A stretch of 58,898 nucleotides of DNA, from assembly GCA_947630835.1 (NCBI GenBank), contig CANRIZ010000017.1, positions 1 to 58,898 of the forward strand, written 5' to 3'. The notes beneath the pieces are model-generated. The model ran no database searches, was not told the DNA's origin, and saw only the letters and a list, made by a program, of their open reading frames with translations. The first letter of the stretch is position 1. Each line of letters starts with the position of its first letter. Shown here piece by piece: positions 1-14,309 of the stretch. Source of the DNA: an uncultured Clostridia bacterium. Its GTDB lineage: Bacteria > Bacillota > Clostridia > Oscillospirales > Acutalibacteraceae. Both the position numbers and the translations under genes were made by a program.

Positions 1-768
1 TCTCCTGCCGAGTGGATCACCATTCACCGCAGATTGTTCGAGGGCGTATTTGACCACGCCGGACAAATCCGAAAATACAACATTTCCAAAAAGGAATGGG
101 TACTGAATGGCGAATCGGTTATCTACGCCGATTTTAACAGCATAAAAGATACCTTGGATTATGATTTTGCCACTGAAAAACAGTTCTCCTATGAGGGATT
201 GTCGGTGGAAGCATCGGTAAAACACCTTGCAAAATTTGCATCGGATATTTGGCAGATTCACCCCTTCGGCGAGGGCAACACAAGAGCCACCGCCGTGTTT
301 ATGATTCAGTATATGAAAACCTTCGGGTTCCGTGTCAACAACGATGCGTTCCGTGAAAACTCTTGGTATTTCCGCAACGCTTTGGTTCGTGCAAACTACA
401 ACGATCTGCAAAAGGGGATCCATTCCACCACAAAGTTTTTGGAATTGTTTTTCACAAATCTCCTGCTCGGTACCAACTACGAATTAAAGAATCGCTATAT
501 GCACGTCGATTTTGCGGATGAAACTGCCTCCCAAAGTATCAACGCTAGAGTTCCAAAGTATCAATTTGATACTTTAGACTGTTCTTTGGAAGAACTTGCA
601 GTTTTAGAATTGGTTGCAAAGAACCCGACGATAAAGCAACAACAGCTTGTAGAAGCAACCGGAAAATCAATCGCAACGATCAAACGAATTATGAAATCGC
701 TACAGGATAAAAATTATATCCGCCGTGAAAGCGGCAAACGCTACGGTAAGTGGGAAATTTTGGTTTAA
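1..768 (+). CDS. Fic family protein, 5'-truncated by the window edge
   Basis: The reading frame is open from the first base, so the gene starts left of the window; 255 residues are visible. The Fic signature HPFGEGNTRAT begins at visible residue 87 (base 259). It contains the catalytic His and the phosphate-binding GN-x-R of the HPFx(D/E)GN(G/K)R family that usually transfers AMP or another nucleotide moiety to target proteins. The C-terminal 60 residues look like a winged helix (QQQLVEATGKS then KRIMKSLQDKNYI), as in DUF4172/Fic-HTH proteins that bind DNA or autoregulate. It lies 24 bp upstream of a type III restriction gene on the same strand, so co-transcription is plausible. Any inhibitory helix would be upstream of the window or is not recognisable. 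The family call is firm; target and role are unknown. Confidence 0.88.
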   Translation, partial: SPAEWITIHRRLFEGVFDHAGQIRKYNISKKEWVLNGESVIYADFNSIKDTLDYDFATEKQFSYEGLSVEASVKHLAKFASDIWQIHPFGEGNTRATAVFMIQYMKTFGFRVNNDAFRENSWYFRNALVRANYNDLQKGIHSTTKFLELFFTNLLLGTNYELKNRYMHVDFADETASQSINARVPKYQFDTLDCSLEELAVLELVAKNPTIKQQQLVEATGKSIATIKRIMKSLQDKNYIRRESGKRYGKWEILV

Positions 769-792
769 AGCATCGATTTCTGGAGGGAAAAT

Positions 793-3663
793 ATGTTCTA
801 TAAAATGATAGAAAACAAGTGCAGAGAGTGGTATGCTTCTGAGCAATGCACTGTTCGTAATTTAATTGAATATATAGAGAAAACCGGACAAATGCGGGAC
901 GCACAGATTGAAGCAATCAAGGTTTATCTGTTTCTTAAAATCGCCTGTGAGTGCAGGCCGTTAGAATACCTTTTTCTAAACGGTCGGTTCAACTCTCTTG
1001 ATTTAAACGATATAGAGTTATCAACGGCAGCCCGTGAATACTTGGAAAAAAATCCGTCAGCGGCCGCACTGTTTGAATATTCCCGATTAACAAACGATAA
1101 GGGCGAACAGGTTTCAGAAAAGCTTGAAAATCAAATCAAAAAAGATCCGTCAAGTATTGACTGCGAAAGCTTTTTTCATAACGCTTTTTATGGCGTTTCT
1201 TATACGGATTATCTGTTCAGCCTGCCAATGGGTGCCGGTAAAACATATTTAATGGCGGCGTTTATCTATCTTGATTTGTATTTTGCACTAATCGAGCCGA
1301 CAAATCCCATATTTGCACATAATTTTATTATCTTTGCGCCGTCAGGACTAAAATCCTCGGTTGTGCCAAGCCTCAAAACGATACAGAATTTTAATCCGGC
1401 TTGGATTATTCCCGAACCAGCGGCAACAAAAATTAAGCGTTTGATTTCATTTGAGGTACTTGATCAGGGAAAAACCGCTAACAAATCTAATAAAACAAAA
1501 AACCCGAATGTTCAAAAGATTGCAAATCATCAGCCGCTTTCCGAACTTTTCGGGCTTGTTGCCGTTACAAATGCAGAAAAAGTCATACTTGACCGTATTA
1601 AGGAAAAAAACGGTCAAATCAGTCTGTTTGAGGAAAGCGATGATGAAAAGGACAAACAGGCAAATGAACTCCGAAATCTGATCGGCAAACTGCCGTCGCT
1701 TTCAATCTTTATTGATGAGGTACACCACGCCGTCAGCGATGAAATTAAACTGCGTGCTGTTGTTACAAAATGGGCGCAAAATAAAACCGTTAACTCAGTA
1801 ATAGGCTTTTCGGGCACACCTTATCTTGAAAAGGCCGAAAAATTCAGGGTTGTCGATTCCCTTTCCGTAGGGACGGCGGAAATTACAAATATTGTATATT
1901 ACTATCCATTAATTAACGGCGTGGGTAACTTCTTAAAGCGTCCGGTAGTTAAAATTGCGGATATTGCCGACAGCAGTTTGATTATTGAAAAAGGCGTCCG
2001 TGAATTTCTCAATACATACAAAGATACGATTTATGCAGACGGTTCGACCGCTAAGCTCGGCATTTATTGCGGCACGATTGAAAAATTAGAAGAAGTTGTC
2101 TATCCTTTGGTATCCCGTATTGTTTCGGAATACGGACTTGAAACAGATGTAATACTGAAATTTCACAAAGGCAATAAGCAATATAAAATGCCTGCCGACA
2201 GCCAAATGCAGTTTGATATTTTGGATAAATCTATTTCAAAGATACGCATAGTACTGCTCGTGCAAATCGGCAAAGAGGGCTGGGACTGCCGCAGTCTGAC
2301 GGGCATTATACTTTCCCAAGAGGGCGACTGCCCGACAAATATGGTACTGCAGACATCCTGCCGCTGTCTGCGACAGATAGTGAAGAACAGCCCCGAAACA
2401 GCGCTGATTTATCTCAACGAAAGTAACGCCGGCAAGCTGAATATGCAGCTTGAACAGCAACATCACATTACTCTAAAAGAATTTTCATCTGCCGACAACA
2501 GCAAACCGTCGTTAAAGCGTTATAACCGCACGACGTATTTAAAGCTGCCGAAGGTCGAGTTTTACCAGCTCAAAATCAATTATGATACCCTTACGATCGA
2601 AAAAGCCGATCCGGCAAGCAATATTGCGGTTTCGGCCGACGGTACACGCCTTGCAGTCAGTATAATCAAAACTACCGACCTATCTATGGACGAGAGCAAA
2701 ACAACGATAAGCGTTGACGACTCGGAATACGGGACCGAACCTACGACCTTCCTTTCTTGGGTTTACGGAATTACAAAGGGCGGCTTTCTAACACTTACGG
2801 TTGCAGAGCTAATGAAATTTGAAAAATCTCTCAAAGACATTTATAATACAATCACCTATAAGAAAGACGGGGTTTTCTATTTCAGCTCAAAATATGACCG
2901 AAAGCAGGTTGAGGCCAATATTCGCAAAGCCTTCTGTGATAAGCTTGACTTTAAAACGACAGAAGAGCTTATACCTGAAGCGGCAAGTCTTTTGAATATC
3001 AAAAATTTCACTGACAAAATTCTTACCGACAGACCGCAGGATTACTACCCGGATCAGGTTATTACAGATAAAATCATATTGGACGACGAGGGCAAACTGA
3101 AAATTGACCCTAAAACAGAAAATGCCATTCGGCTGCTGGAAGAAGCCGGAAACATAACGATAGCCGAAACACTGCGGGCACAGAGTACTTCACACAAGAA
3201 TAAAGACCGTTCGTTCCATTATCTGCCCTACAGAACCGATAGTGGCTTTGAACAGACTTTCTTAAAGGAAGTGCTATCTTTTGAGGAGATTGAAAAGCTC
3301 GGCTTAGAGGTCTACTACAACGGTGACCGTGCTATGACTGAATTCAAAATTAAATGTTATAAGCAGAACGGAGAAAAATGGAAATACATAGGCATTTATA
3401 CTCCTGACTTTTTGATTATTAAGCGCAAAGGCGACAAGATACACAAAGTGATAATCGTCGAAACAAAGGGCGGTATATATGCAAACGACCCGACCTTTAA
3501 AGATAAAAAGACCTTCATGGAATCGGAGTTTTCAAAACAAAATAACAAAGCTTTCGGCTATGAGCGCTTTGACTATTTATATTTGGAAGATAAGCTGTCG
3601 GAGAAAGAACGAATTTTATTGACACAAAAGAAAATCAAAGAATTTTTCAAGGAGGAACATTAA
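793..3663 (+). CDS. res: Type III restriction enzyme, Res (helicase-endonuclease) subunit
   Basis: A 956-aa SF2 helicase-nuclease that would translocate on DNA and cleave when two recognition sites meet, working with the Mod subunit. Visible motifs are Walker A MGAGKT (residues 146-151), the DEVH box (D308), the SAT-like motif GFSGTP, and a helicase C-domain with GKEGWDC and QTSCRCLRQ. A C-terminal PD-(D/E)XK nuclease core has P871-D872 followed by E890-x-K892. The length is typical of type III Res. The ATG at 793 follows GGAGGG (782-787). The stop overlaps the next ATG by one base (TAATG), so the genes are translationally coupled. The order res before mod is opposite to the classic mod-res arrangement. 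No truncation or missing motif was seen, so the subunit is probably active. Confidence 0.93.
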   Translation: MFYKMIENKCREWYASEQCTVRNLIEYIEKTGQMRDAQIEAIKVYLFLKIACECRPLEYLFLNGRFNSLDLNDIELSTAAREYLEKNPSAAALFEYSRLTNDKGEQVSEKLENQIKKDPSSIDCESFFHNAFYGVSYTDYLFSLPMGAGKTYLMAAFIYLDLYFALIEPTNPIFAHNFIIFAPSGLKSSVVPSLKTIQNFNPAWIIPEPAATKIKRLISFEVLDQGKTANKSNKTKNPNVQKIANHQPLSELFGLVAVTNAEKVILDRIKEKNGQISLFEESDDEKDKQANELRNLIGKLPSLSIFIDEVHHAVSDEIKLRAVVTKWAQNKTVNSVIGFSGTPYLEKAEKFRVVDSLSVGTAEITNIVYYYPLINGVGNFLKRPVVKIADIADSSLIIEKGVREFLNTYKDTIYADGSTAKLGIYCGTIEKLEEVVYPLVSRIVSEYGLETDVILKFHKGNKQYKMPADSQMQFDILDKSISKIRIVLLVQIGKEGWDCRSLTGIILSQEGDCPTNMVLQTSCRCLRQIVKNSPETALIYLNESNAGKLNMQLEQQHHITLKEFSSADNSKPSLKRYNRTTYLKLPKVEFYQLKINYDTLTIEKADPASNIAVSADGTRLAVSIIKTTDLSMDESKTTISVDDSEYGTEPTTFLSWVYGITKGGFLTLTVAELMKFEKSLKDIYNTITYKKDGVFYFSSKYDRKQVEANIRKAFCDKLDFKTTEELIPEAASLLNIKNFTDKILTDRPQDYYPDQVITDKIILDDEGKLKIDPKTENAIRLLEEAGNITIAETLRAQSTSHKNKDRSFHYLPYRTDSGFEQTFLKEVLSFEEIEKLGLEVYYNGDRAMTEFKIKCYKQNGEKWKYIGIYTPDFLIIKRKGDKIHKVIIVETKGGIYANDPTFKDKKTFMESEFSKQNNKAFGYERFDYLYLEDKLSEKERILLTQKKIKEFFKEEH

Positions 3664-3863
3664 TGAATGAAATTCGACCGTCATTTGGAATTGAATTTGA
3701 CGATAAATATATAGAGGCAAAAAAAGAGCTGTTTAAATGTTATGAGGCTTTTATAAAACTGACAGATGCGCAGAAACAACAACTTGCAATAGAGTTTTTA
3801 AAGTCAGTGGGTATGGCTGATGCGGTTGAGAAGTTTATGAGATATATGAATAATGGAGGGTGA
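3663..3863 (+). CDS. Small conserved-looking protein between res and mod
   Basis: A 66-aa acidic, helix-prone protein of unrecognised family. Its ATG shares one base with the res stop codon, and a strong GGAGG sits in the last codons of res. Its stop (3861-3863) falls between the ribosome binding site (3855-3860) and start (3869) of mod, so it is tightly built into the operon. The sequence is mostly two amphipathic helices ([13 protein letters not shown] and [13 protein letters not shown]) with no zinc motif or signal peptide. It could be a small accessory or specificity subunit of the type III complex, or a regulator; no function can be read from sequence alone. Operon position and Shine-Dalgarno signals make it a convincing gene. 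Confidence 0.7.
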
Positions 3864-3868
3864 TTCTA

Positions 3869-5719
3869 ATGCCGATTAAATATGTGCCGTTCATCCCCGA
3901 ACCCATTGAGGGACAGGCTGTGCTGGGGAACTTTAACAGAATCCTGAAATATAAAGGTGCCGATGACGTTTCCATGACCCTCCGGCGCGGGATGCCCCTT
4001 TATGAAATGGAAAAGCAGGAGACCGTGGGCGAAAACGCAGACGGTAATATGGTAATTCGGGGCGAATGTGTTTCTGCCTGTGCATACCTGAAAGAAAAAG
4101 GTATTCAGGTGGATCTTGTGTATATCGACCCACCCTTTGCCAGCGGTGCAGATTACGCCAAGAAGGTCTATATTCGCCGCAACCCGAAAGTTGCGGAAGC
4201 GATCGCGCAGGCTGAGCAGGAGCTTGACATTGACGAACTGAAAGCCTTTGAAGAAAAAATGTACGGCGACGTTTGGGACAAGGAAAAGTACCTGAACTGG
4301 ATGTACGAAAATCTCATGGCGATCAAAAGTATTATGAGCGAAACGGCGTCGATTTATGTCCATTTGGATTGGCATATCGGGCACTATGTAAAAATCCTGA
4401 TGGACGAGGTGTTTGGGGAGGACAATTTCAGAAATGAGATTATTTGGGCTTATAGAAGATGGAGTGCTCGATCTTCAATTTTTCAGAATTCACATGATGT
4501 CATTTACTGGTATACAAAAAATGAAGAGTACAACTGGAATCAGACATATGAAAAATATGCAGATAACGGTGCACATTTTACCGAAAAAGATGAAAATGGA
4601 GAATACAGATGGCAGTACCTTAACGGCAAAAAATACAAATTATATAAAAAGGACGGAACACGCACAAAAGACTGGTGGGATGATATTCCATATATTAATT
4701 CAATGGCAAATGAGCGCATTGATTATGCCACTCAAAAGCCTGAAGCACTTCTTGAGCGTATCATCAAAGCATCTTCCAACGAAGGAATGCTCGTTGCCGA
4801 CTTTTTCGGCGGCAGCGGTGTTACAGCGGCAGTGGCATCAAAACTCGGACAGCGCTTCATTCACTGTGATATCGGATTGAATTCCATACAAACCACCCGC
4901 GACCGCCTAAAAGCGAACGGCGCAGAGTTTGACGTGCTGGAAATTAAAGACGGCGTGCAGCTTTACCGCAACCCGGTACAGACAATGGACAAGATCAAGT
5001 CACTGATACCGGGGCTTAAAAATGAGGATTCTCTCGATTCCTTCTGGGAGGGCGCCGTTTCCGACAGCAAGCTGGGAACCGTCCCCGTCTATGTCCCGAA
5101 CTTGGCGGACAGTTCTTCAAAACTGCTCGACAAGGTAATGATGAATCGCATTATTCATCAGGCTATCCCCGAGCTTGACGGCAATATTAAAAAAGTTATT
5201 GTCTACTACATAGATATTACGGACAAAGACGAAATCTTGCAATTTATAGATGAAGATGACAGCACAACGGTCGAAATTGAACTGCGTGACCTGAAAACCG
5301 TTCTTGACGATGTGATAATCGGCGATTATGCGGAATTTCATACAGAGGAATGTCACGACGACCTGTTCGGCGGATACGCTGTTGTCATTGATAAATTTAT
5401 GAGCGACCGTGTGATTTCAAAGATAGATGAGTTCAATCAAAAAGCATTTCTTAATTCTTCGGCAAAGAAGCCGTATAAGCCTATTGAAATCAGTAAGGAC
5501 GGCTTGGAGCTTATTGAGTTTTTGAGCGTTGACTGCACCGCCGCCGAGGGTGAGTGGCACTCCGACAGCGAAATTAAGATTGACAAAAACGGCTATGTGA
5601 TCGCTAACGGCACGAAAACAAAAAAATTTTGGAACGAACAAATTCGCTGTGACAAAAAGCCGCTTCGCCTCAAAATCCGTAACATCTGCGGCGACGAAAC
5701 GGTGTGGGCGGTTATGTGA
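3869..5719 (+). CDS. mod: Type III DNA methyltransferase, Mod subunit (adenine-N6, beta-class order)
   Basis: Modification and specificity subunit (616 aa) that would methylate adenine in the recognition site and guide Res. The catalytic motif IV is DPPF (87-90), a variant of DPPY. The S-adenosylmethionine-binding motif DFFGGSG follows at about residues 311-317, giving the beta-class order IV then I. The central part between them (roughly bases 4430-4760, including [16 protein letters not shown]) should hold the target recognition domain and is visibly more AT-rich than the flanks. The C-terminal 200 residues may contact Res. The ATG at 3869 was chosen because GGAGGG lies 8 bases before it; an upstream GTG at 3860 lies inside that site. 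The preceding small gene overlaps this leader. Family call firm; sequence specificity cannot be read. Confidence 0.92.
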
Positions 5720-6046
5720 AAATCATAGTATTTTTTGAATAATAACCGTTAGTTTGCAATTCATAACTCTGGAACCACGATGGATAACCTAATACATAGT
5801 AGCATATTGTATTGCACCTGTTTCTGGCATTACCCAAACATATATTTGAAGTTGATCGCATTGAAAAACGCAAAGAAACAAGCAAGTATATTGTTTGTTT
5901 CAAGCCTAATACAACAAAAAATCAATAAATTAGTCTTTGAAGGAAAAACGGACATTTCCTCAAGTTCCTTACTATTTTTCTTATGATAATCTCAAATGCA
6001 GAAGCATTAGATGTACTGTGAAAACTGATTCTTAAGGAGAGATAAT
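5720..6046. other. Intergenic stretch without a recognisable gene
   Basis: The 327 bases between mod and the helicase gene are AT-rich. They contain only short open frames without ribosome binding sites, and no clear hairpin terminator for mod. The last 20 bases hold AAGGAG in front of the helicase start. This junction marks the change from moderate-GC type III genes to markedly AT-rich DNA, so it may be a seam between separately acquired modules. Confidence 0.5.
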
Positions 6047-8860
6047 ATGACACATCAGTGGACTGATAATCAACGAGAAGCAATTGAAACTATTGGCCAA
6101 AATATGCGAATAGTTGCATGCGCTGGTTCAGGCAAAACTACAACTATGGTTGAACATATTCTTTATTTGTTAAATCAACCAGATGTTGAACCAGAAAATA
6201 TTGTGGCAATTACATATACAGAAAAAGCAGCAGCTTCACTTAAGCAAAAGATATTCGAAGCGTACGAAAAACAGCATAATACTCTTGAAGGACTTGCAAA
6301 TATGTACATTGGAACTATACACGGTTTTTGCCTTTATATGTTGCAAGAATTTTCTGATGAATATAAAACATTTGAGACCTTAAATGATGTTCAGACTAAA
6401 TTATTCATTAAACGGCACCGTAGAGACAACGGCATTTATGATGTGATGTATCATTCGGTGAAGAGCTCAAATACTTATCCTCTCTATAATGATAATAGTA
6501 GTGCAGATAAAAAAGCAAATGCAATTAACGCATATAAAGCGTTCCTTGATATTGGAAGAGAGTATAGTATTGAAAAGCTTGATAAATCGCTACAAAATCA
6601 TATCGAAAAATATGAGAAAACATTAATAACCCATAAGTATTTCGATTTTACTTCTATAATTTCAACTACTCTTACTAAACTCAATTCTGGTGTCTTCGAT
6701 AATTTTATATCAGGAAAAATTAAATATTTAATAGTAGATGAATATCAAGATGTCAATGCAGCACAAGAAAGAATCATAAAACACTTTTCGGAACAAGGTA
6801 CATATATCTGCGTTGTCGGTGATGACGATCAAACTATTTATCAATGGCGTGGTAGTAATTTATGCTTTATTAAAAATTTTGCTGATTCGTACCATAATGT
6901 TAAAAAAATTGATTTGGATATTAATTTTAGAAGCAGTAAAGGGATCACCGAAATTTCAAAACAAGTTATTGACCAAAACAATAATCGTCTACGTAAGGAA
7001 ATGAAAAGCAAAGAAAATCAGAGTTATGACCAAGGTGATATTATTACTTACGAATTTGATGATCGTGTTTCTGAGGTTAACTTTATTATAAATAAAATCA
7101 AGCAACTAATAGGATGCAAGTACATCCGAAAAGGTCAAGAGTTTAAATTGGATTTAGATGATATGGTTATCTTAGTTAGTTCGGTCAAAAAAATACCAGA
7201 ATTAATTTCGGGCTTGGAATCAAATAATATTAATTTTATTGTTGAGGGAACAAAAAATTTATTTGACTCTGAGGAAATTGTAATTCTGTGTGATACACTT
7301 TCTTTGATTTTCCCGCAAATAGTTTTTGAATATGGTTCCCCAAACAAAGAGAAGACTGTTAACAATATTAAAGCTACAGACATTCCCGATGCTTTAATTG
7401 AGCGATGGGGAAAATATACTCATATTGATAAAAGCGATATCAGGACCCATCTTGAAACATTTGTACTTTCACCTTTTAAAACGGATGATTATGAGTACAC
7501 CATACAAGGTGCAATAAAAAAGTTATTTATGGATTTACAGCTCTTCTATGTTGAGGATGAAAAAGTTCTATATAACTGGGGAAAATTCACTGAAATGATC
7601 AATGATTTTGAAAAGATCAATCTGGATATGGTCCCATCATATAGATTGAAAGCATTTGAAACGTTTTTAAGAGAGGAAGCCCCAGAAATATATCCAGAGG
7701 GATGGTTATCCCCTAACTTTAAAGCCGTAAAATGTTTAAGAATTATGACTTTTCATCAATCAAAAGGTTTGGAGTATCCTGTTGTATTTATGCCGTTTTT
7801 AACTAAACATTCTATTTTTCCTCAGCGCAATCCTGGTGGATTAAATGCTTGGGGCATTATCAACGACAATACAATCAAGCAAGAATACGAAGACAATGAC
7901 GAAAGTATTAGAAGAGTGTTTTATGTTGGGATGACTCGAAGTGAAAAATTTCTCTTCATGACTCGTTCTAACCATATATCCGAATCTGGAAAAACTAGTT
8001 ACAGAACTCCTGCTTTTCCTTTCGTGGAAGCTAAAAATTCACCTTTTAAAGAAACTCGGCTTTACTTGGAAAAAGAATATGAAAAAAGTGATAAAGCAAA
8101 ATTTTCCACTGATGAGGTCATTACTTTAAATTTTTCATTACTGAAAGACTTGTTTGATTGCCCTTATAAATTTAAAATGACTAATATTTATGGCTTTTGT
8201 TCTCCGTTGAATATTCGTATGGGTTATGGTAGGTCTATTCATAATATGCTAGATTATATACACAAAAACCATGAAAGCATAAATTATAATGATCCTTTGA
8301 TTATTGAAAGTATCGTAAAAAAATATTTACATCTTCCATACGGATCTCCGAAATTGTATGAAGCTATGACCGAAAAAGCAACAAGAAATTTAAACTCTTA
8401 CATTAGAAACAATGCTTCACGGTTCAAGTATATCAAGTTTTCCGAAAAAAGCATCAATTATAGTATTGATGAATATATGTTCATTAACGGACGAATTGAT
8501 CTTGTACGAGATGAGGTTAATCATACAATTACTCTTGTCGATTTCAAATCGAATAGCGAAGTTTTATCCAAAGACCAAATAAAGAATCAACTAATGGTTT
8601 ATGTGCTTGGATATGAAAATCTAACTGGTGAAAAAGTTGATTATATAGAGTCTTATGACTTCAACAATAGTAACCCAACAACAATTGAATTGCACGATGC
8701 CGATAGAGATATATTTGACAAACGTTTAAGAGAGTGTGAAAATACTATTAGATCAAGCGATTACAAAAAAATATTCGAATTGGATAATACCAAGGATTAC
8801 AATTTTTGCAAGAATATTAAGTGTGAGTTTTATGATTCGTGTCATCTGCACTTTAAATAA
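6047..8860 (+). CDS. UvrD/PcrA-type helicase fused to an Fe-S-type PD-(D/E)XK nuclease
   Basis: A 937-aa protein. The N-terminal 650 residues form an SF1A helicase: Walker A ACAGSGKT (24-31), motif II DEYQD (D231), motif III DDDQTIYQWRG, motif IV-like INFRSS, motif V TFHQSKGLEYPVVF and motif VI RRVFYVGMTR. The C-terminal 230 residues are a RecB/AddB-like nuclease: GYGRSIH, GRID (D818), DFKS (D832, K834) and QLMVY. One cysteine before the nuclease core (C705) and three at the end (C921-x4-C926-x5-C932) resemble the iron-sulfur staple of AddB, Dna2 and Cas4, although the first gap is usually CxxC. It would unwind and degrade DNA. AAGGAG precedes the ATG. The next gene, 86 bp on, is a DNA methyltransferase, suggesting a self/non-self system rather than housekeeping repair. 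Confidence 0.9.
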   Translation: MTHQWTDNQREAIETIGQNMRIVACAGSGKTTTMVEHILYLLNQPDVEPENIVAITYTEKAAASLKQKIFEAYEKQHNTLEGLANMYIGTIHGFCLYMLQEFSDEYKTFETLNDVQTKLFIKRHRRDNGIYDVMYHSVKSSNTYPLYNDNSSADKKANAINAYKAFLDIGREYSIEKLDKSLQNHIEKYEKTLITHKYFDFTSIISTTLTKLNSGVFDNFISGKIKYLIVDEYQDVNAAQERIIKHFSEQGTYICVVGDDDQTIYQWRGSNLCFIKNFADSYHNVKKIDLDINFRSSKGITEISKQVIDQNNNRLRKEMKSKENQSYDQGDIITYEFDDRVSEVNFIINKIKQLIGCKYIRKGQEFKLDLDDMVILVSSVKKIPELISGLESNNINFIVEGTKNLFDSEEIVILCDTLSLIFPQIVFEYGSPNKEKTVNNIKATDIPDALIERWGKYTHIDKSDIRTHLETFVLSPFKTDDYEYTIQGAIKKLFMDLQLFYVEDEKVLYNWGKFTEMINDFEKINLDMVPSYRLKAFETFLREEAPEIYPEGWLSPNFKAVKCLRIMTFHQSKGLEYPVVFMPFLTKHSIFPQRNPGGLNAWGIINDNTIKQEYEDNDESIRRVFYVGMTRSEKFLFMTRSNHISESGKTSYRTPAFPFVEAKNSPFKETRLYLEKEYEKSDKAKFSTDEVITLNFSLLKDLFDCPYKFKMTNIYGFCSPLNIRMGYGRSIHNMLDYIHKNHESINYNDPLIIESIVKKYLHLPYGSPKLYEAMTEKATRNLNSYIRNNASRFKYIKFSEKSINYSIDEYMFINGRIDLVRDEVNHTITLVDFKSNSEVLSKDQIKNQLMVYVLGYENLTGEKVDYIESYDFNNSNPTTIELHDADRDIFDKRLRECENTIRSSDYKKIFELDNTKDYNFCKNIKCEFYDSCHLHFK

Positions 8861-8946
8861 AATCATGCTTTTATATGTAGTTGCTATGTCATTTCACGCT
8901 ATTAAGTTGGTCTTGAAAAAATTTAATTATTTATAACGGTGATAAA

Positions 8947-10317
8947 ATGAATCTTGAAAATCTTAAATCAAAATTTAATCAACTTACTTTAGAATCTGAA
9001 GACCATTGGGACTATCGTGGAAACAACAAAAGTGAACGTGACTATGTTCACGGATTTTGTACTTATCCTGCTATGATGGTTCCCAAGATGCAGCGTGAAA
9101 TATTGCAAGTCTGTCTTGAACAATCTAAAAACAAACATCTAAAATTGTTAGATCCTTTTGCTGGTTCAGGTACTATTTTGGTTGAAGGTATGTTACAAGG
9201 ACTAGATATAGTTGGAATAGACATCAACCCATTGGCCGTTCTGCTCTGTAAGGTAAAAACTACAATAATTGATCCAAAAGTATTAAAGCAACATACAAAT
9301 AATATAGCATGCGAAATCAATCGACTGAAAATGTCTCAAATAGAACATCATTCTTTTGATGGAATTGAAAAATGGTTCACCCATCAAGCAATAACAGATC
9401 TAACTATCCTGCGAAATGCTATTATTAAGGATGGCGATATTAATATAAGACGGTTCTTTTGGGCAACTTTTTGCGAGGTAATTAGAATTGTATCAAATTC
9501 AAGAGATTGCACATATAAACTACATATCAAAGAAAAATCAGATATTGATGGCTATGATAAGGATGCAATTAATCTCTTCTTGAAAACCCTAAGTTTTAAT
9601 GTGGATAAATATTTAACATTTTACAACAAATTAAAAAGCACTGGGAAACTTAAGAAAGATGGAGTTTCATATAAAGGTAAAATTAAAATTGTTTTAGGAG
9701 ATTCAATTTCTTATCTAAATCACACAAAGCAAAAATTTGATTTAATCTTAACTTCTCCCCCTTATGGGGACAACCATACAACTGTTTCTTATGGTCAATA
9801 TTCTATAATGCCATTAAGATGGATTCAATGTTCTGATATCGACGATGCTTTTGATGAAAGAATGTTATACACTCTAAATGGAATAGACAATCTATCATTA
9901 GGTGGAAAATCTACAAATAGAACTATGACAAAAAAACGAAAAAGTGTTTTAGAAAAGTCTGCAACTCTTAAAAATCAAAGTGAAGAAATTATGGTAATTG
10001 CTAAAAAGCAAGTAAATAAACTAATTGCTTTTTATAGTGATTACGACTCGTTTTTGTCAGCCATATCAAAGAAAATGAACTCAAATGCAATATCTGTATG
10101 GACATTAGGCAACAGAAAAATAGCCAAGCAGGAAATACTTATGAATAAAATAATGATTGAACTTTGTGATCATTACAAGTTGTCCTTAGTCACAAGTTTC
10201 ACTAGAAAAATTTTAAATAAAAGAATGCCTGAAATTTGTGCTTACACTGCTGAAAGTACAAAATCTCAATCTACTATGACAAGAGAACATATCCTTGTAT
10301 TTACCAAGGATATATAA
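8947..10317 (+). CDS. SPPY-type DNA methyltransferase (N4-cytosine or N6-adenine)
   Basis: A 456-aa amino-methyltransferase. The SAM-binding motif LDPFAGSG starts near residue 68, with GIDINP following. The catalytic motif TSPPYGD (S270-Y273) comes 200 residues later; this order is motif I then IV. SPPY is common among N4-cytosine enzymes, but N6-adenine cannot be excluded. The SPPYGD-x2-TTVSYGQ continuation is seen in methyltransferases that sit beside restriction genes. The ATG follows GGTGA. Composition is as AT-rich as the helicase-nuclease just upstream and unlike the type III genes, so these two probably arrived together. Likely role: protecting host DNA from the neighbouring helicase-nuclease (inference). 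Length and motifs look intact. Confidence 0.88.
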   Translation: MNLENLKSKFNQLTLESEDHWDYRGNNKSERDYVHGFCTYPAMMVPKMQREILQVCLEQSKNKHLKLLDPFAGSGTILVEGMLQGLDIVGIDINPLAVLLCKVKTTIIDPKVLKQHTNNIACEINRLKMSQIEHHSFDGIEKWFTHQAITDLTILRNAIIKDGDINIRRFFWATFCEVIRIVSNSRDCTYKLHIKEKSDIDGYDKDAINLFLKTLSFNVDKYLTFYNKLKSTGKLKKDGVSYKGKIKIVLGDSISYLNHTKQKFDLILTSPPYGDNHTTVSYGQYSIMPLRWIQCSDIDDAFDERMLYTLNGIDNLSLGGKSTNRTMTKKRKSVLEKSATLKNQSEEIMVIAKKQVNKLIAFYSDYDSFLSAISKKMNSNAISVWTLGNRKIAKQEILMNKIMIELCDHYKLSLVTSFTRKILNKRMPEICAYTAESTKSQSTMTREHILVFTKDI

Positions 10318-10319
10318 AA

Positions 10320-10354
10320 GACAGGGCACGAGAGTTGGTTTTTCGTTCCCTGTC
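10320..10354. terminator. Stem-loop after the methyltransferase gene
   Basis: GACAGGG pairs with CCCTGTC, then after one mismatch ACGA pairs with TCGT, closing an 11-base loop. It begins 3 bases after the methyltransferase stop. There is no long T tract, so it is a weak intrinsic terminator or an mRNA-stabilising hairpin. Confidence 0.45.
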
Positions 10355-10355
10355 C

Positions 10356-10722
10356 TTATAAGTGAATAAGTTCTTTGTCAACCACTTCATTCACAATGTT
10401 ACGAATATTGTTAATCTTTCGCACCCAAGCTATTTGGTCGGTTGATTTGAGTTATTCTGTCACACCTTCCTTCTCGGTGTATTCTTTTACCAGCCAAGAA
10501 AAAGGGATTGTGCCTGTTCTTCGGTGTCGGCGAGGTAGGATTGAAGCTTGCTGGAAGTAAGCAGGTTGTATTTTAGAACTTTGTGCTGTTGCTTAAAGTA
10601 TCGCAGTAGGCGCTGTCCCTACACGCCGATGAGACGTTATTCTTCGTCAGGTAAAGTAAGATTAGGTAATCGCCTTTCCGGGTAAAAGTACCGCTCATTT
10701 GCTCGAGTACTATTTTTTCTAT
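10356..10722 (-). pseudogene. tnpV: Degraded tnpV-like transposon gene
   Basis: Read on the minus strand, this matches the second tnpV copy at 11064-11438 in layout and residues, but is riddled with damage. The start is ATA instead of ATG, several in-frame stops replace codons, and the 367-base length implies a net frameshift. Recognisable pieces are the GDYL...LTLPDEE start, the RLLRYFKQQHKVLKYNLL middle and the IAWVRKINNIRNIVNEVVD end. The upstream bases also match the leader of the better copy, including the remains of its hairpin. TnpV proteins are short accessory proteins of clostridial mobile elements; their function is not established. Clearly non-functional. Confidence 0.75.
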
Positions 10723-11063
10723 AACGTAAACCTATTTTTGTGCTACCATTATACAAAGGGGCTCATTTTCGTCAAATGTGTAATTTTTAAAAGTGCAGCT
10801 TTTCCGTCTTGAAATGAGATTCCAAAAATGGGTATCGCATTTTAGTCAAGTACGATTTACCGAATCGTACTTGACTAAAATTAAAGTTCCGGCAAGTGCG
10901 TATGTTTTCTTATACTTGGATAGGAGCTATATGGCTGCCGTTACAAAATCCGAGAATTTGATTAAACTTCTACACGCAGATCTCATAAACTGCGTGTCAA
11001 ATAATACATTCTCTGCTTTATGGTGAAGCAGCGGCAGAGGTTTCTCCCTGCCGCCGACCGGTT
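10723..11063. other. Non-coding spacer between the two tnpV copies
   Basis: No gene with a ribosome binding site was found here. The notable content is a perfect 19-bp inverted repeat (listed separately) and a short GC-rich hairpin near 11034-11055 (CGGCAG paired with CTGCCG) just downstream of the second tnpV copy, which may act as its terminator although no T tract follows. Confidence 0.5.
10839..10881. repeat. Perfect 19-bp inverted repeat with 5-base loop
   Basis: The left arm 10839-10857 (ATTTTAGTCAAGTACGATT) is exactly complementary to the right arm 10863-10881, separated by TACCG. The stem is far longer than ordinary terminators here and has no T tract beyond the arms. It could be a transposon-end pair, a recombination or protein-binding site, or a folded single-stranded-DNA signal of the mobile element. 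It sits between two tnpV copies and near no intact gene. Confidence 0.85.
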
Positions 11064-11438
11064 TTAACTGTAAATCAGTTCATTATTGACAATCTCCGTT
11101 GCTCGGTTCCTGATATTGTTCATCTTTCCAACCCACGCCATCGAATCCCGTGCTTTGAGCGATTCGGTTATGCCCTCATGTTCCGCCATCTGTTTTATCA
11201 GCCGAGAAAACAATTCCGCTGCCTGCCGATCGACGTCGGCGAGGTGGTCGTTCAGATTGCAGGCAGTGAGCAGGTTGTAGTATAAGATATGGTGGTGCTC
11301 TTTCAAATACCGCCTGCGCCGCTGAGCCCATACGCCTATTGGCTGATCTTCCTCGGCGGGTAAAGTTAGTCAAGGGAGCCGATAGTCGCCCTGCTGTTTG
11401 TACTTCCCGCCAATTTGCTTGAATACTGTTTTTTCCAT
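11064..11438 (-). pseudogene. tnpV: tnpV with premature stop codon
   Basis: A TnpV-like reading frame of 124 codons starting at ATG 11438-11436, behind AAAGGAGG with 8-base spacing. The first 22 codons (MEKTVFKQIGGKY to DYRLP) are followed by TGA at 11372-11370. The same frame then continues undisturbed (LTLPAEEDQPIGVW, then KEHHHILYYNLLTACNLNDHLADVD, to the end at 11064). A one-base change from a Cys codon TGC to TGA explains it. An internal restart at about 11306 would give an 80-aa fragment. TnpV is found on clostridial conjugative and mobilisable elements. Probably a recent pseudogene; recoding or a sequencing error is the alternative. Confidence 0.8.
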
Positions 11439-11446
11439 AACGCAAA

Positions 11447-11477
11447 CCTCCTTTGCACTACTATTGTACAAAGGAGG
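11447..11477 (-). promoter_or_regulatory. Hairpin sequestering the tnpV ribosome binding site
   Basis: On the minus strand CCTCCTTTG (11477-11469) is a perfect 9-bp complement of CAAAGGAGG (11455-11447), which contains the Shine-Dalgarno of tnpV; the loop is 13 bases. Transcripts covering this hairpin would hide the ribosome binding site. Such structures are known in transposase leaders as protection against read-through expression; here this is inference from base pairing. The degraded upstream tnpV copy keeps a partly matching remnant near 10731-10762. Confidence 0.65.
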
Positions 11478-11637
11478 CTTGGTTTCGTCGAATGTGCGAT
11501 TTTGAAATTTACAGCTTGATTATCAAAAATGACATTTCAATGGATTTTACCCCTTAAAAGTCTGACATTTCAATAGGATTTGCTCGACATTTTTATGACT
11601 TTTCAAATTTACATGGAGTAGCATACGCTTATTCCTG

Positions 11638-12207
11638 TCAGAGAAGTTTCCGCTGCCGGGCAAACTCCTTTAGAATGTAAATATGCCAACGGGACTTTTG
11701 GACGATGGTGCGAAAGTACGGCGAGCAGAAAAACTCGATCAGATATACCTTGGGGATACGGTTCACATTGTTTTTCTTGAACGACTTTAAGTGTCCTCTG
11801 CGGCACCAGCTGTTGACGGTGGTTTTCACATAGCCGGTCAACTTCACAATATCCTCTGCCATCAGAACGTCGGGGTACTTGGAGAGCAGCTTAGCATAAA
11901 AGTCGTGCATATCCTCCCGCACTACAGGAGGAACCTCGCTTTGCATTTTTACCGGGTAGCTGTTGCTGTACCACCCCGCCGGGGCGGAGTAGCTTTCGGG
12001 AAAGACCTTGCGGTCTTTCAGATAGGCGATAACGTCCGCCTTTTTAATTTTGTAGCAGCGGGTTCGTTTGCCCGTATACTCGCACGGAATCTTTCCGCTT
12101 TTCAGCAGGTACAGCGCCGTGGATTTGCTGATATGGCAAATCCGATAGAGATGATCCTTTGTGATGACCTCCGGGATGGAATCCCAGTTGACAGCGTTCT
12201 CTTTCAT
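11638..12207 (-). CDS. Two-domain helix-turn-helix protein, excisionase/regulator-like
   Basis: A 189-aa basic protein with two MerR/excisionase-type DNA-binding segments. The first is residues 15-68 (ITKDHLYRICHISKSTALYLLKSGKIP then the YKIKKADVIAYL wing). The second is about 115-165 (VLMAEDIVKLTGYVKTTVNSW, then RRGHLKSF and IPKVYLIEFF). A linker with SYSAPAGWY joins them. ATG 12207 was chosen because GAGGTG lies 8 bases upstream; the TTG two codons earlier is less likely. It is the last gene before the island's tRNA-Ser attachment site, where xis/int modules usually sit, so it may be an excision or directionality factor or the element's regulator. No integrase is next to it in this window. 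Confidence 0.75.
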   Translation of the reverse strand: MKENAVNWDSIPEVITKDHLYRICHISKSTALYLLKSGKIPCEYTGKRTRCYKIKKADVIAYLKDRKVFPESYSAPAGWYSNSYPVKMQSEVPPVVREDMHDFYAKLLSKYPDVLMAEDIVKLTGYVKTTVNSWCRRGHLKSFKKNNVNRIPKVYLIEFFCSPYFRTIVQKSRWHIYILKEFARQRKLL

Positions 12208-12261
12208 TTGCAATACACCTCAAAATAACAGAATTGTCGGTGTGCTGTCCGTGTATTGCCG

Positions 12262-12300
12262 TTCTGCCTCTGTTCTGCCCTGTCTGCCCCCGGTTCTGCC
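12262..12300. repeat. Four TCTGCC iterations one helical turn apart
   Basis: TCTGCC occurs at 12263, 12274, 12283 and 12295; three of the four are preceded by T (TTCTGCC). Spacings of 11, 9 and 12 bases put the repeats roughly on one DNA face. They lie between the HTH gene start and the attachment site, where arm-type integrase/excisionase sites or an autoregulatory operator would be expected. Function is inferred from position only. Confidence 0.5.
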
Positions 12301-12467
12301 CAAAATCGCAATTTTTCGTGATTTGAACCCATTTTGAGAAAACGCCGAAACAGGGCGATTTTTTGAATGCGACCGCCGAAAAATCCAGTCGCCGTGCGGG
12401 TTTTCGCCGATCCATATCTGACCGTTTCTGACAGAAAATTTTCGAAAAGCGGTCGGAGAGCATCGCA

Positions 12468-12523
12468 CTCGAAATCAGGTAGCCTTCACGGGCTCGTGGG
12501 TTCGAATCCCACCGCTTCCGCCA
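12468..12523 (+). other. Island attachment site (att): 3' half of tRNA-Ser(CGA)
   Basis: From CTCGAAA (anticodon loop, anticodon CGA, 12468-12474) to CCA (12521-12523) the sequence is a normal serine tRNA 3' half: the TCAGG anticodon-stem strand, a long variable arm, a T arm GTGGG-TTCGAAT-CCCAC and the acceptor strand CGCTTCC-G-CCA. The upstream bases do not supply the partners: TCGCA stands where CCTGA is needed, and no GGAAGCG or D arm is found. The gene is therefore cut at the anticodon loop, a common crossover point for tyrosine recombinases. This predicts an intact tRNA-Ser at the other island end, left of the window. Confidence 0.8.
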
Positions 12524-12525
12524 AG

Positions 12526-12556
12526 AAACGGCAAAGCTGACGCTTTGCCGTTTTTT
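12526..12556. terminator. Intrinsic terminator of the original tRNA-Ser gene
   Basis: AAACGGCAAAGC (12526-12537) pairs perfectly with GCTTTGCCGTTT (12542-12553) around a TGAC loop and is followed by TTT. It starts 2 bases after the tRNA CCA, so it is the tRNA's terminator. It may also stop minus-strand transcripts from the gene ending at 12608. Confidence 0.85.
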
Positions 12557-12607
12557 ACTTATAAGATTTTTACTTTTATTATTAATACGGCTTATTAATC
12601 CGTCGTA

Positions 12608-14083
12608 TCAATCCAACGAATAGTAATCCACCAATTCCTGTTTATGCTGAGGGCCTGTAGGTCCGCCCGACAGTCTTGGATATATACATATCGGAGGATA
12701 ATAGCCGTAATTTCCCCAACGGCTGACTGCTTTACTGTTTTCGTCATAGTAATTTAAATTAAAGCATTCGTTCCATTGACTTTGTCCTATACCGCGGCCC
12801 ATATGGTTCAGGCTGTCATAAGAATAAGTTTCCAAAGCGTTGTTTTCCCATAAATTCCAGGCTGTTCCCCTGCTGCATTCATCGGTAAGTTTAACTACAA
12901 AAGCGTTTACATAAATATGCTTTCCCTCGGTTGACCACATACCGTGGCTGCCTAATGCTGTATATGCGACAGGATGAGTGGCGTCGATTTTTTCAACGTC
13001 GTTCCACGAATAACAATTAATAAAATCGTGCGCGCTGTAGCATACGATAACAGGGCGCCAGGAAACAGAGCCGTTAACGGTTTCTTTCAAAAGGCGAACG
13101 GTCATATGCTCCCAATCGCCTATATGATTGCCGAATTCCATACCCAGTATTTCTTTTGATTTATTATACGGAGTAAAAACAAAATAGCTTAAATCGAGAT
13201 ACTTCTGCTCCTTCTCTATAGCAAAAGCGTAAGCCTTGGCTTTATCGAGATTTCCGTATAAATAATCACTCATATATTTGGGATTGTCGAGCTGTGTGAT
13301 TATGTAACGATAATCGCTGTCGGTCTTAACCCTTTTCATATTTTCGGCGGCGTCTTCAACCGAGGTCGCAAAGAAACGCTCCTCCTCCGCCCACCAAATT
13401 CTCGGAGCAAAGGTATTAAGCAGCTCCGCTTTTTTGTCGCTGTCAAGCTCTACGCATAAAACCGTTTCACTCTCTAAGGGCATTATTTTTATTGATTTAA
13501 TTTCATCCTCTATCGAATAGAACTTCCCTTTTGACAAAGTGGAATAAACGTAGATATTTTCTTTTCCGCCGAAATTCTCTTTACTGAAAGTATGCAATTC
13601 GTAACCGCCGTCGATAAACAGCCTAAAATTCTCATATGAAACGCTTGGATATTCGCCGACGTCAAATTCGTCATAACTGTTTTGATCAGAAAAGACGGCA
13701 ACAGGCGAATTGATATTACCGAAATCCTTTGTAAACTGTGCGCTTGCATAACCTTCTCTTGAATTTAAAACCAACTGCGTTGACACAAACGAGCCGTAAC
13801 TGCCCCAACCGATAAATTTATATCCGTCTTTTTTCAGTACCGGCAGTTTAATTTTTTCATATGCGTCATAAGTAATTGTATCGCTTTCGGGATAACCCTC
13901 CGCACCGTTGTAATATAATGTTAAAGTTCCCTTTTCGTTTGGCTGAATAATATAGTCGGTTCCGTAAGGGTCGTACACATACGAACGGTTTACGGCAAAA
14001 ACGACGCACAACGCCACAATTACCGCCGCGGGCAAAATTAACCATAACCATTTCAAATTTCTTTTATGCTTTGATTTCTCCAT
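12608..14083 (-). CDS. Membrane-anchored Vps62-like protein with an InlB-type repeat
   Basis: A 491-aa protein. A basic N-terminus and one hydrophobic segment (about residues 10-32, LWLILPAAVIVALCVVFAV) indicate a signal anchor with the rest outside. Residues around 50-95 (LTLYYNGAEGYPESDTITYDAY then GYKFIGWG) resemble an InlB B-repeat/Flg_new module of surface proteins. The C-terminal half matches the Vps62 family: GNHIGDWEHMTVRL and YTALGSHGMWSTEGKH, with conserved Asp/His/Trp that suggest an enzyme-like or metal-binding site; biochemical function is not established. ATG 14083 follows AAGGAG; a GTG at 14245 lacks such a site. A consensus promoter lies at 14394-14422, so the mRNA has a long leader containing a tiny frame. 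Confidence 0.75.
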   Translation of the reverse strand: MEKSKHKRNLKWLWLILPAAVIVALCVVFAVNRSYVYDPYGTDYIIQPNEKGTLTLYYNGAEGYPESDTITYDAYEKIKLPVLKKDGYKFIGWGSYGSFVSTQLVLNSREGYASAQFTKDFGNINSPVAVFSDQNSYDEFDVGEYPSVSYENFRLFIDGGYELHTFSKENFGGKENIYVYSTLSKGKFYSIEDEIKSIKIMPLESETVLCVELDSDKKAELLNTFAPRIWWAEEERFFATSVEDAAENMKRVKTDSDYRYIITQLDNPKYMSDYLYGNLDKAKAYAFAIEKEQKYLDLSYFVFTPYNKSKEILGMEFGNHIGDWEHMTVRLLKETVNGSVSWRPVIVCYSAHDFINCYSWNDVEKIDATHPVAYTALGSHGMWSTEGKHIYVNAFVVKLTDECSRGTAWNLWENNALETYSYDSLNHMGRGIGQSQWNECFNLNYYDENSKAVSRWGNYGYYPPICIYPRLSGGPTGPQHKQELVDYYSLD

Positions 14084-14309
14084 TTTTAATAACTCCTTAA
14101 AACAAACAAATTGCGTTTTAATTTCGTAAACAAAAGTGACTGTTAAAAGGGTATAAAAATACCATACAATCAAAACCAATCGTCTGCTTGTATGGTTAAA
14201 ATAATAAAAGACACGACCGCCGTGCCTTACAAATACAGTATTCACGAAAGGTTTTTACAGGCAACGCAAATAAACGCAAAATATGCGTTAAGCCGCCCGG
14301 TATTAACTT

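Follow-up and report, generated by a model that had tools for sequence, protein, structure and literature searches.

Fusions of a UvrD-type helicase with a Cas4-like nuclease domain (pfam12705), referred to here as UvrD-Cas4, were described in 2017 by Hudaiberdiev et al. (PMC5704561). The sections of that paper devoted to them propose an ancillary role in defence and name two conserved gene contexts, one with type III Mod/Res and the other with Dcm (and Vsr). The term UvrD-Cas4 was found in the literature in that paper alone, and none of the titles and abstracts listed in searches of open-licence papers reports an experiment on such a fusion. Excerpts of two further papers mention UvrD-Cas4-type fusions near EVE-domain genes (PMC7641849) and a Cas4-like nuclease and UvrD, as separate proteins, that reduce plasmid maintenance in a cyanobacterium (PMC10653904). 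Here, we analyze a stretch of 58,898 nucleotides (the window) from an uncultured Clostridia bacterium (contig CANRIZ010000017.1), in which a gene for a UvrD-Cas4-type helicase-nuclease is directly followed by a gene for a DNA methyltransferase, MT2, with an SPPY motif, and we ask how far the two can be regarded as one defence module. A sequence-only reading of this DNA had taken the pair for a possible unnamed system. This does not hold for the helicase family, which the same 2017 paper already places, in the sections concerned, beside restriction-modification (R-M) genes; the family is known as a predicted defence part, and the pairing with MT2 is new as far as the literature covered here extends.

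R-M-like systems with GHKL ATPases (HEF_HK or paraMORC) are treated in the portions of PMC8011034 and PMC2292703 that bear on them; in the former, methyltransferase genes lie upstream of HEF_HK/Response_reg_2 pairs, and MvaI_BcnI domains occur in such vicinities.

The window protein shares with the fusions of PMC5704561, as set out in its relevant sections, the domain architecture, the R-M methyltransferase context and the predicted role in defence; it differs in its C-x4-C cysteine spacing and in its partner, an SPPY methyltransferase of the kind linked to MvaI/BcnI nucleases or GHKL ATPases, whose gene follows that of the helicase. This direct partner is neither Mod nor Dcm, and a Res-Mod pair lies upstream in the window. 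MT2 is homologous to the methyltransferases of MvaI/BcnI type II R-M systems, but the nuclease was not found in the window genome. Similarly, the nearest relative of MT2 has the GHKL neighbor of the HEF_HK/paraMORC systems, whereas MT2 itself is not followed by such a large gene. AddB carries a set of four cysteines. The helicase-nuclease resembles AddAB and RecBCD in combining a UvrD motor with a RecB-family nuclease and this four-cysteine set; however, it is a single chain, and it scores 150.8 bits with the curated AddA model against a cut-off of 707.65. PADLOC models for GajB of Gabija match its motor domains, the shared feature being a UvrD-type helicase, but the window protein has an additional nuclease domain, and no GajA-like protein is present among the eight Pfam-scanned proteins encoded from 34 to 14245. 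Model scores and missing partners thus rule out both Gabija and AddAB as identities.

Results

The sequence-only reading had described a UvrD helicase with an AddB/Cas4-like nuclease and four cysteines, followed 86 bp downstream by an intact SPPY methyltransferase. Its coordinates, reading frames and gap are exact (Table 1), and Pfam and alignments bear out the domains and residues as placed. The helicase-nuclease matches PF00580 (UvrD-helicase, residues 5-282), PF13361 (UvrD_C, 288-641) and PF12705 (PDDEXK_1, 694-933). All 12 sequences of an alignment (window included) conserve H732, D818, D832 and K834 as well as C705, C921, C926 and C932 without exception; in a larger alignment of 24 sequences, the same holds for C705, C921 and C926 and almost for C932. 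The protein is predicted to hold an iron-sulfur (Fe-S) cluster and to be active as helicase and nuclease.

Relatives were collected from plasmids (17 records matched and 11 neighborhoods opened, with L021 among them PcrA-like), viral contigs (25 loci), a sample of genome contigs (at least 80 loci) and a genome set; G and L numbers denote genomes and loci, respectively. A profile search separated 45 helicase-nuclease members, including the window protein, from shorter PcrA-type proteins. The C-terminal cysteine pattern was detected by script in 41 of the 45, with spacing C-x2-C-x5-C in 40 and C-x4-C-x5-C in the window protein only. The four members without a match are L027, which is truncated, L072, L084 and L085, although C921 and C926 still align in L072 and L085. 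The unusual gap pointed out in the sequence-only reading is therefore real but local: because the protein of genome G213, which is outside the 45, also has C-x4-C, this spacing is a mark of the lineage formed by the window and G213 helicases and not a family trait.

The pair recurs in this second genome. Among 394 genomes of the order, the window helicase lineage was found in the window and in G213 only. This count of at least two is a lower bound, as it considered two candidates per genome at E values up to 1e-40 and missed distant fusions in G517, G538 and G544; hits in G432 and G514 are motor matches in proteins of ~710-720 aa. MT2 homologs were found in nine of the 394 genomes, and both genomes with the helicase lineage have an MT2-family gene adjacent to it. 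In G213, which belongs to another family of the order, the helicase is 60% identical over the part present and is followed 40 bp downstream, in the same order and on the same strand, by an MT2 relative with 34-36% identity. The search for co-occurrence called for by the sequence-only reading thus returned one further genome with a helicase of this lineage, and the pair is present there. Both G213 genes have a guanine-plus-cytosine (GC) content of 0.34, compared to 0.54 for contig bases 1-5545. The two MT2 genes are from distinct lineages, a single clade being rejected (approximately unbiased test, p-AU 4.55e-5), and so the arrangement appears to have outlived an exchange of the methyltransferase; we take this for partner exchange and not for two independent encounters between these families. 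The contig with the G213 pair (locus L180) also carries a type II CRISPR locus (2-4804; part of Cas9, Cas1 and repeat-like open reading frames [ORFs]).

The wider family has a habit of adjoining DNA methyltransferases. Neighborhoods were compared in 46 loci, i.e., the 45 members without the near copies L017, L019 and L029 and with L168-L170 and L180 added; leaving out the window, L180 and L168-L170, which were found through Res, gives a set of 41. By our own models, a methyltransferase gene lies within 200 bp at 24 of these 41 loci and at 0 of the 47 loci of the PcrA-type control. The models had neighbors of the family as their training set and are circular for it, and Pfam counts serve as the independent check. 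In the Pfam test, which took on either flank the first gene encoding 150 aa or more and listed the 25 commonest families, the 80 immediate neighbors at the 41 loci include 18 with PF01555 and four with PF00145. At the 47 PcrA-type loci (88 neighbors, 73 families), neither is among the 25 commonest families, which leaves room for one neighbor per family, and NAD-dependent DNA ligase dominates (27). Altogether, these findings confirm that the habit lies far above the PcrA-type controls. By our models, nine of the 46 loci lack a methyltransferase within 6 kb, some of them ending at contig ends.

The partners within this habit change. The helicase tree has 46 rows, 43 of the family and three of PcrA type, after L027, L071 and L086 were dropped as incomplete. 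Of the 43 family rows, 26 (three of them found through Res) have a Mod-type enzyme as the closest methyltransferase within 3 kb, and many of these lie in Hel-Mod-Res operons. On the tree, the Mod-type label must change 10 times, and all labels together 15 times; the tree has long branches, PcrA-type rows fall among the fusions, and the rows labeled as without methyltransferase include loci at contig ends. We conclude that the helicase-nuclease family switches partners repeatedly. The window and G213 helicases group together (100/100) among fusions, where long-branch PcrA-type rows are also interspersed. L085 is a bare two-gene case in which the gene for a 5-methylcytosine (m5C) methyltransferase overlaps the helicase-nuclease gene by 35 bp, with genes for a TehB-like protein and a thiolase as flanks. 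L031 resembles it except for an HNH gene on the downstream side. L032, which encodes a downstream protein of 337 aa without Pfam match, and L033, which begins at the methyltransferase gene and for which one further protein was scanned alone, are possible further cases. At L026 (7998-13871), the gene of a UvrD-Cas4 relative is followed after 3 bp, in place of the methyltransferase gene, by one whose product combines a Sacsin domain with a C-terminal NO VEIN domain.

In MT2, motif I (DPFAGSGT, residues 69-76) precedes motif IV (TSPPY, 269-273). Pfam matches N6_N4_Mtase (PF01555) only at residues 48-95, around DPFAGSGT, while PADLOC models for type II methyltransferases extend over nearly the entire protein (best E value 2.3e-85). 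SPPY is a sign of N4-cytosine methylation. The nearest relative, at L025, is 60-61% identical and a sister of MT2 (100/100), and its gene is followed by one for a GHKL-type ATPase. MT2 is 27-34% identical to seven methyltransferases encoded near MvaI/BcnI nucleases and falls outside the MvaI-linked clade. Among 15 members of the MT2 family, seven have an MvaI/BcnI gene beside them or within ~1.5 kb (L012, L015, L016, L023, L024, L182 and L183), five adjoin a GHKL ATPase gene (L013, L025, L051, L052 and L181) and two adjoin a UvrD-Cas4 gene (window and L180); the neighbors of the fifteenth, L014, were not scanned. The tally omits seven of 14 plasmid hits (H20, H23, H24, H27, H28, H29 and H31), four of nine genomes (G098, G245, G348 and G514) and 18 of 20 viral loci (L053-L070). 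A profile search for an MvaI/BcnI nuclease was negative in the source genome of the window (G000; 2.1 Mb in 39 contigs) and in G213, both incomplete assemblies, and positive in the controls G311 and G474. No large GHKL ATPase gene follows MT2, where only short ORFs (<100 aa), not scanned with Pfam, lie between 10317 and a helix-turn-helix (HTH) gene at 11638. In phage records, no MT2 relatives were found at E values up to 1e-15.

The helicase and MT2 genes are adenine-plus-thymine (AT)-rich, as the sequence-only reading had observed, with a GC content of ~31% (0.314 and 0.308, respectively) compared to 41-45% for Res and Mod (0.407 and 0.451) and 0.425 for the remaining window. They are also mutual nearest neighbors in codon usage (distance 0.166), for which AT content alone may be the explanation. 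A GGAG run immediately precedes the helicase start codon ATG (by eye), and a pattern scan found no terminator-like site in the spacer between the two genes. By contrast, the proposed integrated island was supported by signs judged by eye only, namely a tRNA-Ser-like 3' half at ~12437-12523, the HTH gene and decayed repeats. The tRNA-like half is a possible integration scar, but neither ARAGORN nor Rfam reports a tRNA there. Downstream of MT2, 10360-10800 and 11060-11520 are diverged duplicates of one stretch (best piece 78% identity over 102 columns), which resemble decayed mobilization genes.

The six main genes of the locus are all on the + strand (Table 1). The window starts at base 1 of its contig, and the N-terminal part of the first of these proteins, the Fic-HTH protein, may lie past the contig start; this protein strongly matches the PADLOC candidate model PDC-S72 (E value 2.7e-83, model positions 112-333 of 377). 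Res was found in 11 of the 394 genomes. Four close and complete Res-Mod relatives (L162-L165; Res 67-97% identical) have no helicase gene within the 19-20 kb fetched; in these four cases, the Res-Mod lineage thus does without it. L168-L170 are Hel-Mod-Res operons with distant Res proteins (26-28% identity); of the other four genomes, L166 and L167 are truncated or decayed, G275 was not extended and one is the window itself. At E values up to 1e-5, window Res matched, among the loci compared, only the Res proteins of four Hel-Mod-Res operons. Res-ORF66-Mod is probably a separate R-M system neighboring the pair. That the helicase gene is part of a Res-Mod operon was suggested by plasmid neighborhoods and by the similarity of Res and Mod; this candidate was weakened by the close Res-Mod relatives free of it.

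The small genes between Res and Mod vary, ORF66 being present in the window and G446 and other ORFs in G332, G390 and G523. The gene after Mod differs between the window and each of L162-L165, like a cargo slot, and in L163 it encodes a 231-aa protein matching the PADLOC models PD-Lambda-3_B and Aga_HEPN. Mod is near-identical to the copy in G446 of the same genus except for window positions 4451-4700 (residues ~198-280), a block that we take to be an exchanged target-recognition region.

Table 1. Genes and intervals of the helicase-nuclease/MT2 locus (window positions)
Feature	Positions	Strand	Basis or remark
Fic-HTH protein gene	34-768	+	upstream of Res
Res, type III-like	793-3663	+	Pfam, PADLOC
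ORF66	3663-3863	+	between Res and Mod
Mod, type III-like, PF01555 enzyme	3860-5719	+	Pfam, PADLOC
Res-ORF66-Mod, probably a separate R-M system	793-5719	+	
Mod-helicase gap, 327 bp, GC 0.309	5720-6046		composition
UvrD-Cas4-type helicase-nuclease, 937 aa: UvrD (superfamily 1) and PF12705 RecB/AddB/Cas4-like nuclease	6047-8860	+	Pfam, alignment
Helicase-MT2 spacer, 86 bp (40 bp in G213)	8861-8946	+	coordinates
MT2, SPPY DNA methyltransferase, 456 aa	8947-10317	+	Pfam, PADLOC

Discussion

We suggest, with a probability of about one half, that the helicase-nuclease and MT2 genes form a single defence module of the R-M kind, which is AT-rich and was moved horizontally. MT2 would mark a short motif in host DNA, its SPPY motif suggesting N4-methylcytosine as the product. 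The UvrD-Cas4 protein would be the destroying arm, entering unmarked invading DNA at ends, gaps or sites, unwinding it 3' to 5' and cutting it with an Fe-S-supported nuclease of the RecB/AddB type, in that way coupling marking to degradation with an antiphage effect. Self would most likely be told from non-self via the methyltransferase or its mark, because both loci of the lineage keep a methyltransferase directly downstream despite the exchange. The nuclease might work alone, as L085 would allow, or might depend on prior cleavage by a further enzyme, for instance the neighboring Res.

The sequence-only reading had proposed a linked defence module, and the recurrence in G213 and the methyltransferase habit of the family speak for this idea, while most of the MT2-type enzymes examined are partnered otherwise. 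Several lines of evidence weigh against our model. First, the exact pair is seen at two loci only, and the G213 helicase gene runs off its contig end, leaving the first 73 residues and everything upstream out of view. Second, a search of 254 other genomes of the class (E values up to 1e-60) did not recover the helicase lineage, and viral contigs yielded no relatives with the helicase query and only a distant UvrD protein with the window and G213 pair as query. Third, 12 of the 15 MT2-family members are encoded in the vicinity of MvaI/BcnI nucleases or GHKL ATPases, in part the association with another endonuclease that the sequence-only reading had named as a sign of accidental pairing. Fourth, the usual partner methyltransferase of the helicase family is of another kind than MT2. 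Fifth, a Res-like superfamily 2 (SF2) gene is also present at many family loci, among the matches listed and with no systematic count, which fits a helper role.

Such a helper role is the strongest of the alternatives, even if we consider it improbable. The helicase-nuclease would be ancillary to the type III-like Res-Mod system, Res cutting unmodified DNA and UvrD-Cas4 degrading the ends, with MT2 as an unrelated passenger. The predominance of Mod-type enzymes as nearest methyltransferases and the resemblance of window Res and Mod to those of Hel-Mod-Res operons, L168-L170 among them, are consistent with this scenario, and the pertinent sections of PMC5704561 also propose an ancillary role. 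However, the close Res-Mod relatives do without a helicase gene, the Hel-Mod-Res operons found through Res are distant and differ in gene order, and at the window locus Mod and the helicase gene are set apart by their gap and by a sharp difference in GC content.

Slightly less probable is that the two genes are independent neighbors in a defence island, MT2 being a solitary methyltransferase with a protective role and the nuclease standing on its own. Defence genes cluster and shuffle, the nearest MT2 relative adjoins a GHKL ATPase gene and not a helicase gene, and two loci are few. Yet, in G213, which represents a second family of the order, the two kinds of gene meet once more, tightly spaced and in unchanged order; both are rare among the genomes searched, and both genomes found with this helicase lineage have MT2 adjacent to it. 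By contrast, a function in DNA repair or recombination, which would follow from the RecB/AddAB-like domain logic, is very unlikely given the rare and patchy occurrence, the R-M genes alongside and a full-length AddA encoded elsewhere in the host genome, because of which general end repair needs no UvrD-Cas4 protein.

Returning to the module formed by the helicase-nuclease and MT2, a bolder version, which we regard as doubtful, is that UvrD-Cas4 itself acts as the restriction enzyme in minimal systems of two genes that dispense with a site-specific endonuclease. The information on self would then come from a plugged-in methyltransferase, SPPY here and m5C in L085, and the mark or the bound methyltransferase would perhaps act as a Chi-type stop.

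Two-gene loci that combine a methyltransferase with UvrD-Cas4, and have no obvious endonuclease, offer the simplest setting for the question of whether these fusions are helpers or stand-alone restriction enzymes. That MT2 has changed while the nuclease next to it is conserved suggests that the methyltransferase is a plug-in specificity partner, an arrangement that would widen the known R-M designs.

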